Assembly (NCBI GenBank): GCA_021298595.1
Contig: JAJTHL010000009.1
Coordinates: 62,001-126,000, forward strand
Origin: Alphaproteobacteria bacterium
GTDB taxonomy: Bacteria > Pseudomonadota > Alphaproteobacteria > Caedimonadales > UBA1908
Length of the DNA stretch: 64,000 nt
Reading direction: 5' to 3'
Below the pieces are notes generated by a model. It made no database searches and was not told the origin of the DNA. It saw only the letters and a list, made by a program, of their open reading frames with translations. Numbering within the stretch: position 1 is the stretch's first letter; each line of letters begins with the position of its first letter. The position numbers and the translations under genes are program-made. Of this stretch, positions 8,362-11,276 are shown piece by piece.

Positions 8362-9489
8362 ATGATGCAACTAGATGAAATGAAAATTCTTATCATCGAA
8401 GATTCCCTTGATGATGTGGAGCTCTACACCCGCACTCTTAACAAAATTGTTCAGGGGCATATCACAACCTGCAGCACCCCCAAACAAGCACTCGACGTCA
8501 TAAAGAACTACCCAATTGATTTGATTCTTCTTGATTACAACCTACCCCAAATGAGCGGGGTAGATTTACTGCACGAGTTGAAAAAAGAAACAGTTTCCCT
8601 CCCCTGCCCAGTGATCGCACTCACAGGCCAAGGGAGCGAACACGTTGCGGTGAGCTTTATGAAGCTCGGGGTCTCGGATTACTTACCTAAAAGCAAGATC
8701 TCTCCCGAAACCCTTTCCATTGCCATCTACCGCGCTTTGGACCGCTTTAATGTAAAGAAGATGGAAAAAGAGAAGCAGATTGAACGGATACGTTTTGCCC
8801 ATACTGTGGCCCATGATCTTAAGGCTCCCTTGGGCCGTATCAGCTCTTATGTGCGTCTGCTCAGTAAAAAAGTACCCGATGAGGCCCTCCATTATCTTCA
8901 GAATATCAAGGAAGATGCGGCCTATATGACGTCCTTTTTAAGCAACCTTCTCTTTTACGCGGAAATGGGGCGGTCCTCTTTGGCAAAGGATCAAGTTGAC
9001 TTACACTACGCCGTTGAGCGCGCCTTAAGTAATCTTGAAATTGAAATTAATGCCCGAAAGGCTGAAGTACATCTCACAAGCCTTCCCTTCATAGAGGGAG
9101 ATCTGATCTCTCTCACACAGCTCTTTCAAAATCTCATTGCGAACTCGCTAAAGTACTGTGAAGGAAAACCGCTCATTGAGATCGATGCTTTGGTCGAAAA
9201 TGATCGTCTCTTAGTCTTTGTCAGAGATAATGGGATCGGCATCGACAAAAAAGCGTCAAAAAAAGCCTTTGAGCCCTTTTCCCGTCTGGACACGAAACTT
9301 AATGTTGAAGGTGTTGGGTTGGGCCTTGCGCTATGCAAAACCATTGCAAAGCAACACCACGCAAAAATTGACATTGAGCCTAACAAGTCCTCCGGCACAA
9401 CGGTCACAATTTCCTTTCCTTTTAAGAAGAAAAAGAACAACCTTTATGGTCTTGAAGACCATAGGTCAAAAAATGTGCTCACTTCCTGA
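8362..9489 (+). CDS. Sensor histidine kinase with N-terminal receiver domain
   Basis: A cytoplasmic 375-residue protein without membrane segments. Residues 7-125 form a receiver (Asp13/14, phosphoacceptor Asp58 in LLDYNLP, Lys110). A helix leads to a HisKA domain with His151 in AHDLKAPLG, then a HATPase domain with N box (NLIANSLKYC), G1 box (DNGIGI) and G2 box (GVGLGLALCKT). The order receiver-then-kinase means input is by phosphorylation rather than by a sensor domain. It probably passes the phosphate to or from the neighbouring lone receiver. Two adjacent ATGs (8362, 8365) are possible starts. Confidence 0.9.
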   Translation: MMQLDEMKILIIEDSLDDVELYTRTLNKIVQGHITTCSTPKQALDVIKNYPIDLILLDYNLPQMSGVDLLHELKKETVSLPCPVIALTGQGSEHVAVSFMKLGVSDYLPKSKISPETLSIAIYRALDRFNVKKMEKEKQIERIRFAHTVAHDLKAPLGRISSYVRLLSKKVPDEALHYLQNIKEDAAYMTSFLSNLLFYAEMGRSSLAKDQVDLHYAVERALSNLEIEINARKAEVHLTSLPFIEGDLISLTQLFQNLIANSLKYCEGKPLIEIDALVENDRLLVFVRDNGIGIDKKASKKAFEPFSRLDTKLNVEGVGLGLALCKTIAKQHHAKIDIEPNKSSGTTVTISFPFKKKKNNLYGLEDHRSKNVLTS

Positions 9490-9651: not shown

Positions 9652-10107
9652 CTAATTTTTAAGCACATCCTTTGGTAAAATCACCGTATTCATCCAATAG
9701 GTTTTGATACTTTCGCAGATCTCTTGCATTTTTTCAAAGTTCACCGGCTTTTGCATATAAGCATTGGCGCCCGTGTCGTAGCATTTTAGGACGTCCTTTT
9801 GGTCCAAAGATGTCGTAAAAATGATGACTGGAATCATTTTCAAATGGGGCGTTGACTTAATGATGCTAAGCATCTCACGCCCATCAAGTCCCGGTAAGTT
9901 CAGATCCAGGATTATAAGACTCGGCAACTCTTTTGAGGTTTTTTCATACTCACCCGAAAAATTCTTCAAACAATAGAGGGCTTCTTTTGTATTTTTAAAC
10001 CAAACAATAGGTGCATCAAAGTCCGCTGCCTTGAAGCCACGTACCATCGCTTCCCAATCATCATGGTTATCCTCCACAAGAAATACAGCCTGCTCTTTAC
10101 TACTCAT
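9652..10107 (-). CDS. Rcp1-like single-domain response regulator
   Basis: A 151-residue receiver with acidic residues Glu12-Asp13, phosphoacceptor Asp68 in ILDLNLPG, Thr in IIFTTS and Lys in YMQKPVN. The Rcp1-type features are the long loop before the phosphoacceptor and a C-terminal extension. The chosen ATG at 10107 overlaps the TGA of the upstream kinase (ATGA), which indicates translational coupling; the open frame continues upstream to 10173 but would overlap the kinase by 70 bases. Confidence 0.9.
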   Translation of the reverse strand: MSSKEQAVFLVEDNHDDWEAMVRGFKAADFDAPIVWFKNTKEALYCLKNFSGEYEKTSKELPSLIILDLNLPGLDGREMLSIIKSTPHLKMIPVIIFTTSLDQKDVLKCYDTGANAYMQKPVNFEKMQEICESIKTYWMNTVILPKDVLKN

Positions 10108-11276
10108 ACCCCTATCCCCTTGCCGATTGTAAAAAAGAATGTTGTACCCTTGCCCAGCTCTGACTCTAACCAAATGCGCCCACCGTGACGCTCGATAATC
10201 TTCTTCACAAAGGTAAGACCTACACCAGTTCCCTTAACCGTCTCATCTTCATCATTCAGCCGTTTAAAGATTCTAAACACTTCGCCATGGGATCTTGGCT
10301 CTATCCCGATGCCGTTGTCTTTTACGTAAAAGATCTTCTTTTCCTGACGCGCCTCAGTATCGTAGCCTTTTTTTGCATCTTTAACGCCGATTTCAATAAT
10401 TTTTTCTTCTTTATCATTATATTTAACCGCATTAGTCACAAGATTTCTAAATGCTTCTTTAATCCTGACCCCGTCACAGAAAATTGTTGGTAGTGCCTTT
10501 GGAACCAAAAATTTTATGTTGCGCCCTTCGTGGGCACTATGCGTCATCTCAACGATGTCTGACACAATCTCGTTGAGATCCACATGACGAACGGCAAGTT
10601 CTTGTTTGCCAATGCGCGAAAAATATAAAAGCTCGTTAATTAACTGTTCCATTTTCTCGCATAAGTATACCATACGTTCAATACGCTTTATACCACTTTC
10701 ACTTATTTGATCGGCGTGGTCCTCTTTTAAGAAAATGGCATTATTGCTGAGTCCCCTTAAAGGTTCTTTTAAATCATGGGAGGCGATATAAGCAAAATCA
10801 TCAAGCTCTTGGTTGCTTCTTTTTAACGCTTGAATATATGTTTCCATCGCTTCTTGAGCGTTTTTTCGTTCGCTAATATCACGCACAGTTCCTACAAACA
10901 TCAGTTGATCGCCCAGCCACATCTCATTCACGCCAAGCTCCATGGGAAAAGTATCGCCATCTTTTCTCTTGCCATACACCTCACGACCGTGACCAATCAC
11001 TTTTGGTGTTTTTGTTTCAAAATAGTTCTGAAGGTATTCGTTATGTTCAGCGCTGTAGGGAACCGGCATCAGCATCTTCACGTTTTTGCCCATCACTTCC
11101 TTTGGGGAAAAACCAAAAATTCGCTCAGCGGCGGGGTTGTATGCCTTGATATTGCCAGTTTTGTCTATGATGATCAGACCATCAAGGACCGTATTCATGA
11201 CAGGCCATAAGTGACTTTCGCGCGCAAATTTGTTGTCCTGATCAGGACTTTTCTTTTCATGAATATTCTTGGTCAC
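10104..11276 (-). CDS. FixL-like PAS sensor histidine kinase
   Basis: A soluble 390-residue kinase. Residues 25-140 form a PAS domain very like the oxygen-sensing haem PAS of FixL. It keeps a histidine (His78, SAEHNEYL) in the position of the haem ligand and an arginine 20 residues later (Arg98, IGHGREV), the same spacing as His200-Arg220 in Bradyrhizobium FixL. A HisKA domain (His167, SHDLKEPLRG) and HATPase (DNGIGI, GTGVGLTFVKKI) of the phytochrome-kinase type follow. The start is GTG at 11276 with GGAGG six to ten bases upstream. Its product pairs with the downstream receiver. Haem binding is inferred, not shown. Confidence 0.9.
   Translation of the reverse strand: MTKNIHEKKSPDQDNKFARESHLWPVMNTVLDGLIIIDKTGNIKAYNPAAERIFGFSPKEVMGKNVKMLMPVPYSAEHNEYLQNYFETKTPKVIGHGREVYGKRKDGDTFPMELGVNEMWLGDQLMFVGTVRDISERKNAQEAMETYIQALKRSNQELDDFAYIASHDLKEPLRGLSNNAIFLKEDHADQISESGIKRIERMVYLCEKMEQLINELLYFSRIGKQELAVRHVDLNEIVSDIVEMTHSAHEGRNIKFLVPKALPTIFCDGVRIKEAFRNLVTNAVKYNDKEEKIIEIGVKDAKKGYDTEARQEKKIFYVKDNGIGIEPRSHGEVFRIFKRLNDEDETVKGTGVGLTFVKKIIERHGGRIWLESELGKGTTFFFTIGKGIGV

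Follow-up and report, generated by a model that had tools for sequence, protein, structure and literature searches.

Results

Four signalling genes at the locus

The stretch of DNA analysed here, subsequently called the window, comprises 64,000 nucleotides. Its minus strand encodes a 390-aa sensor kinase at positions 10104-11276, whose gene begins with a GTG start codon preceded by the Shine-Dalgarno-like sequence GGGGAGG and runs through an ATGA overlap into the next gene, which codes for a lone receiver. A receiver-histidine kinase and a second lone receiver are encoded close by on the plus strand. The genes and their relevant features are:

7856..8323 (+): second lone receiver with Asp87, upstream of the receiver-kinase gene; also in the sister species and in locus L141
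8362..9489 (+): receiver-histidine kinase, REC-HisKA-HATPase (Pfam), 375 aa, LhfE-like layout, with Asp58 and His151
9652..10107 (-): lone receiver of Rcp1-type position and length; Response_reg domain only, phospho-acceptor Asp68, 4-base overlap with the kinase gene
10104..11276 (-): PAS-HisKA-HATPase sensor kinase, 390 aa; dN far below dS in comparison with the sister species
10113..10844 (-): phytochrome-type histidine kinase core, residues 145-388; phospho-acceptor His167, with N, G1 and G2 boxes intact
10869..11213 (-): FixL/DosP-type PAS domain, residues 22-136 (Pfam PAS, E=5e-16; FixL in the PDB, E=2e-32)
10983..10985 (-): codon of Arg98, by alignment the predicted distal O2-stabilising Arg (BjFixL Arg220, DosP Arg97)
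10989..10991 (-): codon of His96, by alignment a possible sixth haem ligand (position of DosP Met95 and BjFixL Ile218)
11043..11045 (-): codon of His78, by alignment the predicted proximal haem ligand (BjFixL His200, DosP His77)

Phospho-acceptor and ATP-site motifs are intact in all four proteins, and comparison of the window with its sister species MCMED-G24 detected strong purifying selection on all four genes. Their relative order, both lone receivers included, is the same in MCMED-G24 and in L141. Scans for promoters and terminators yielded hits at chance level, and a plasmid search with the lone receiver returned distant, generic response regulators only. Elsewhere in the window, a 668-aa protein with a class 3 lipase domain is encoded at 44397-46403 (minus strand), and a 445-aa ORF at 3345-4682 (plus strand) has no Pfam match at E 1e-5.

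The PAS domain resembles the haem domains of FixL and DosP

According to Pfam, PAS-type, HisKA and HATPase_c are the only domains of the sensor kinase; neither a further sensor domain nor a PAS-GAF-PHY bilin-binding module was found in the protein. The original prediction described the PAS domain as FixL-like, with His78 and Arg98 spaced as in FixL. Indeed, its gapless alignment with the B. japonicum FixL haem domain spans 127 residues, 56 of which are identical (44%). Here, His78 pairs with His200 and Arg98 with Arg220, and the residues, their distance of 20 positions and their coordinates all proved correct. The distal residues Val93, Leu114 and Val116 keep the hydrophobic kind seen in FixL. 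When the PAS domain was compared with the PDB by phmmer, FixL ranked first (E = 2e-32), followed by DosP (about 1e-13), while other PAS domains matched at 1e-6 or weaker.

The fold of the domain was modelled with AlphaFold2 from an alignment with 24 relatives, leaving out one relative with an ambiguous base (pLDDT 87). In the model, His78 lies within the F helix (predicted helix 74-88) and Arg98 where the G strand begins; within the PAS core, certainty is lowest for the F-G loop between them. A Foldseek search of the PDB with this model returned FixL or DosP haem domains as its top 32 matches, with TM scores up to 0.90 and an rmsd of 1.2-1.3 A to single FixL haem domains, a comparison that depends partly on sequence similarity and employs a model without haem. 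The search with the full-length kinase was swamped by kinase folds and is uninformative on the PAS domain. A reading of the domain as a flavin-binding (LOV) domain was rejected, since LOV structures ranked below all FixL and nearly all DosP matches in Foldseek. The domain carries a histidine on the F helix of a FixL-fold PAS, which places it with the FixL/DosP-type haem PAS domains, and judging from its sequence it probably binds haem.

The His-Arg pair is conserved but common

The frequency of the pair was assessed in a sample of 197 distinct PAS domains gathered from relatives. A His occupies the position of His78 in 160 of them, and 154 of these 160 also possess the Arg, whereas just 2 of the 37 domains without the His keep it (Fisher P about 4e-30, relatedness ignored). 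In domains lacking the His, the F-G segment is mostly shorter or different and the IIGxGRE motif mostly absent. The co-retention in 154/160 domains, together with the phmmer match to FixL, rules out a chance origin of the spacing. Six residues, i.e. His78, Tyr81, Tyr85, Ile94, Gly95 and Arg98, are invariant in an alignment of 26 PAS-kinases with 37-82% identity, which were picked for a strong PAS match. The spacing is no special mark of gene 10104-11276, as most of a large PAS clade has the pair; a PAS domain as similar as that of the window is carried by 115 of 385 sampled alphaproteobacterial genomes. These comparisons indicate that the His-Arg motif is genuine and conserved and probably has a function, but that it is also common. 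Among the other PAS proteins of the same genome that were read, none has a His-Arg pair in a PAS domain.

A separate observation concerns locus L083 (genome G015, 1.7 Mb; the same locus as L152), which has the four-gene module. In its PAS domain, the His persists while the Arg and the F-G motif have been lost; this is a possible decaying haem site, indicating that the site can decay.

Position 96 is occupied by a candidate sixth haem ligand

Gapless alignment of the PAS domain with E. coli DosP (K-12 sequence) matches His77, Met95 and Arg97 of DosP to His78, His96 and Arg98, the second of which had escaped mention in the original prediction. In ferrous DosP, Met95 serves as the sixth ligand and is displaced by O2; the M95L variant of DosP is five-coordinate. 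The engineered M95H variant is six-coordinate and ligand-switchable like the wild type, its potential being -122 mV as compared to 45 to 70 mV for wild-type DosP (PMC4263535). The resemblance between the window PAS and DosP thus includes a residue of coordinating type at the Met95 position, while the two differ in that DosP is a c-di-GMP phosphodiesterase and has Met where the window has His. Precedent for possible bis-His coordination comes from the haem PAS of FG214 from Fimbriimonas ginsengisoli, whose ferric haem is chiefly bis-His (PMC13060918). FG214 was hit 34 in the Foldseek search; it is a one-component HTH protein, and its fold alignment to the window PAS is only about 20% identical.

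Across the 154 PAS domains with both His and Arg, position 96 is Ile in 87, Thr in 36 and Met in one case, and His is found in the window alone. In the sister species MCMED-G24 (83% identity), this position is Leu. Hence, His96 was ruled out as a family feature, being unique to the window species in this sample. It could render the haem of the window protein six-coordinate, unlike the five-coordinate haem of FixL, and as a one-species feature it may reflect drift or a real switch. We tentatively suggest that the protein might be a natural bis-His (His78/His96) haem PAS kinase driving a phytochrome-type relay in an intracellular bacterium, and that its Leu-bearing counterpart in the sister species might be five-coordinate like FixL, in which case a single residue would have switched gas versus redox sensing within the genus. 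If this were true, the window PAS would be the wild counterpart of the laboratory variant DosP M95H.

In Marinibactrum halimedae, a 514-aa ORF (L151) combines a FixL-type PAS domain (residues 146-265) with a phytochrome-type kinase and has Met at the position of DosP Met95; on this alignment it is a possible DosP-like six-coordinate sensor.

The kinase core is of the phytochrome type

The original prediction assigned the kinase module to the phytochrome type. This is borne out by an identity of 52% between its core and the kinase of a true phytochrome (L216, PAS_2-GAF-PHY), compared to 23-25% with FixL-type kinases, two of which adjoin a FixJ-like REC-LuxR gene. The best matches of the kinase in the PDB are bacteriophytochromes as well (E=6e-51), and on the curated NCBIfam FixL model it scores 177 bits, well short of the cut-off of 850. 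The protein therefore has the kinase core of a bacteriophytochrome and lacks its bilin module, and 10104-11276 is not a FixL. With FixL it shares the PAS fold, the proximal His, the distal Arg, hydrophobic distal residues and the 20-residue spacing of His and Arg. It differs in kinase type, in having Asn84 and Lys92 for Arg206 and His214 and His96 for Ile218, and in a genome without FixJ, FixK and cbb3 oxidase.

A similar gene set is widespread and recalls the Lhf system

The surroundings of the kinase gene were surveyed in 80 loci of named relatives, 31 of which are of the Rhizobium type and thus non-independent. A lone receiver is encoded directly beside the kinase in 73 of these loci, a third gene for a REC-HK or REC-GGDEF protein lies close by in 60, and 59 combine all three components under a strict rule. 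Other carriers of the module belong to Pseudoalteromonas, Vibrio, Planctomycetes, Nitrospirae and Alphaproteobacteria, and the input domains vary among its members (FixL-type PAS, MASE1, CHASE8, NIT and phytochrome). The true PAS-GAF-PHY phytochrome of L216 has the same partners; its lone receiver is 0.4 kb away, which leaves the locus outside the strict-rule count. At four loci (L087, L086, L193 and L201), the third gene encodes a receiver-GGDEF protein instead of a receiver-kinase, which ties the module to c-di-GMP. Genome G312 contains three pairs of kinase and lone receiver with differing input domains (L080, L081 and L082), one of which (L082) is without the His-Arg pair.

In R. palustris, the bacteriophytochromes BphP2/P3 engage in phosphotransfer to their cognate lone receiver LhfD, the receiver-kinase LhfE (42 kDa) acts downstream and LhfA is the regulator (PMC6879726). 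The window locus likewise groups the genes for a phytochrome-type kinase, a lone receiver and a 375-aa receiver-kinase comparable in size to LhfE, a likeness judged by gene set and layout, with LhfD and LhfE matched by description. In this respect it has the composition of an Lhf-type module, in which sensor kinase, lone receiver and receiver-kinase are encoded together. However, its sensor is a FixL-type PAS rather than a bilin-carrying PAS-GAF-PHY module, and it possesses a second lone receiver in place of an adjoining LhfA-like transcription regulator. We infer an Lhf-type gene set whose bilin light sensor has been exchanged for a predicted haem PAS. The parts are known; what sets the locus apart as a variant is their combination and the additional histidine at position 96. 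A further parallel is FlbS of Brucella abortus, an intracellular alphaproteobacterium, which is reported to be a FixL-like sensor that binds haem.

The lone receiver rather than FixJ had been proposed as the output of the kinase, with no direct transcription output. The latter holds for the pair of kinase and lone receiver, the receiver consisting of Response_reg only. As to the former, the lone receiver 9652-10107 does replace FixJ, and the genome has no LuxR-type HTH; but this receiver is not the whole output arm, since the receiver-kinase 8362-9489 and the second lone receiver 7856-8323 belong to the same conserved relay module.

Genome context

The genome to which the window belongs measures 1.72 Mb and is 97.5% complete. 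Its sole haem-copper oxidase is the aa3-type CtaD, a cbb3 oxidase being absent, and a bd oxidase is also present. Neither this genome nor that of the sister species encodes a LuxR/GerE HTH domain, and hence no FixJ, or an HTH_Crp_2 domain above cut-off, and hence no FixK. The genome yields 21 receiver-domain and 10 PAS matches. It further encodes two TLC-type ATP/ADP translocases (G000:C26:92276-93742 and C43:14746-16206), which are also found in the sister species and in 0/14 control genomes. On account of these two translocases, an intracellular life within a host is probable.

Discussion

We consider it likely that the locus encodes a haem-PAS sensor kinase that feeds an Lhf-like phosphorelay, in which the bilin light sensor is replaced by a haem gas or redox sensor. 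The PAS domain would bind haem b via His78, while Arg98 would hold O2 on the distal side and His96 may act as a displaceable sixth ligand in the window species. By analogy with FixL and DosP, binding of O2 or oxidation of the haem would shift the F-G loop and thereby switch the joined kinase on or off. Gene order and the analogous BphP2/P3-LhfD pair suggest that His167 would then donate its phosphate to the lone receiver whose gene is translationally coupled to that of the kinase, with Asp68 as the acceptor. From there the signal may proceed to the receiver-kinase 8362-9489 and the second lone receiver, as LhfE is genetically downstream of BphP2/P3. The final output would be located elsewhere in the genome and, given the 21 receiver-domain matches, could be any of several proteins.

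The place of the lone receiver in this chain is uncertain, because lhfD of R. palustris is dispensable for light-intensity sensing (PMC6879726). It is possible, though we regard it as doubtful, that the lone receiver serves for feedback inhibition or as a sink for phosphate and that the direct target of the kinase is the receiver domain of 8362-9489; this would alter the signalling step alone and leave the sensor the same. Precedents are FixT, a single-domain receiver that inhibits FixL in Caulobacter (PMC7078487), and LovR, which was proposed to dephosphorylate LovK (PMC6530869); moreover, LH4 induction remains intact upon deletion of lhfD (PMC6879726). However, the receiver of the window carries all phosphorylation motifs and is translationally coupled to the kinase, and its position beside the kinase recurs in 73 of the 80 loci. 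This fits an obligate cognate partner, although a sink is still compatible with it.

An unlikely alternative concerns the sensor itself: the PAS domain might bind no haem or another small molecule, with the His-Arg pair kept for structure and the kinase answering another cue or relaying signals via PAS dimerisation. PAS domains of this type often occur as tandem copies, some of which may have no sensing role, the F-G loop is the part in which the models are least certain, and the FixL propionate contacts Arg206, which we take to be the counterpart of R200 in SmFixL, and His214 are replaced by Asn84 and Lys92. No other combination at these positions is as frequent in the clade as Asn and Lys (62 of the 154 domains with His and Arg), and a search for clade members of this form with measured haem binding found none. 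SmFixL variants at R200 retain haem binding (PMC10765370). FixL and DosP fall into one PAS cluster (cluster 3), in which more than 9700 sequences keep the His and are predicted to bind haem, while 40% of the cluster lacks it (PMC10468136). What argues for haem is that domains without the His nearly all lack the Arg as well, and mostly IIGxGRE too, that His78 and Arg98 are invariant across 37-82% identity, and that the bacterium makes haem, its genome encoding a ferrochelatase.

Classical oxygen control by a divergent FixL, which would switch high-affinity respiration through a FixJ/FixK arm encoded elsewhere, is highly improbable: the PAS domain is FixL-like and the aa3-type and bd-type oxidases could be switched, but the low identity to FixL kinases, the failure on the NCBIfam FixL model and the lack of LuxR/GerE and Crp-type HTH domains and of a cbb3 oxidase already contradict it unless a FixJ-like regulator sits in the unassembled part of the genome, and loss to an assembly gap is unlikely because the sister genome has no such regulator either.

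Taken together, the haem-PAS relay that we favour would mean that many bacteria reuse, in combination with a haem sensor, a signalling module that is familiar chiefly from light receptors of bacteria. Species of the Rhizobium leguminosarum group and Pseudoalteromonas are among its carriers, in which the real output is concealed behind the lone receiver. The residue that decides between five- and six-coordinate haem in DosP is not the same in the window species and its sister. With Leu and His96 present in two natural proteins, the question of five- versus six-coordination, so far addressed mainly with engineered mutants, becomes testable. For a probably intracellular bacterium without LuxR-type and without clear Crp/FNR regulators, the locus provides a candidate oxygen or redox input.
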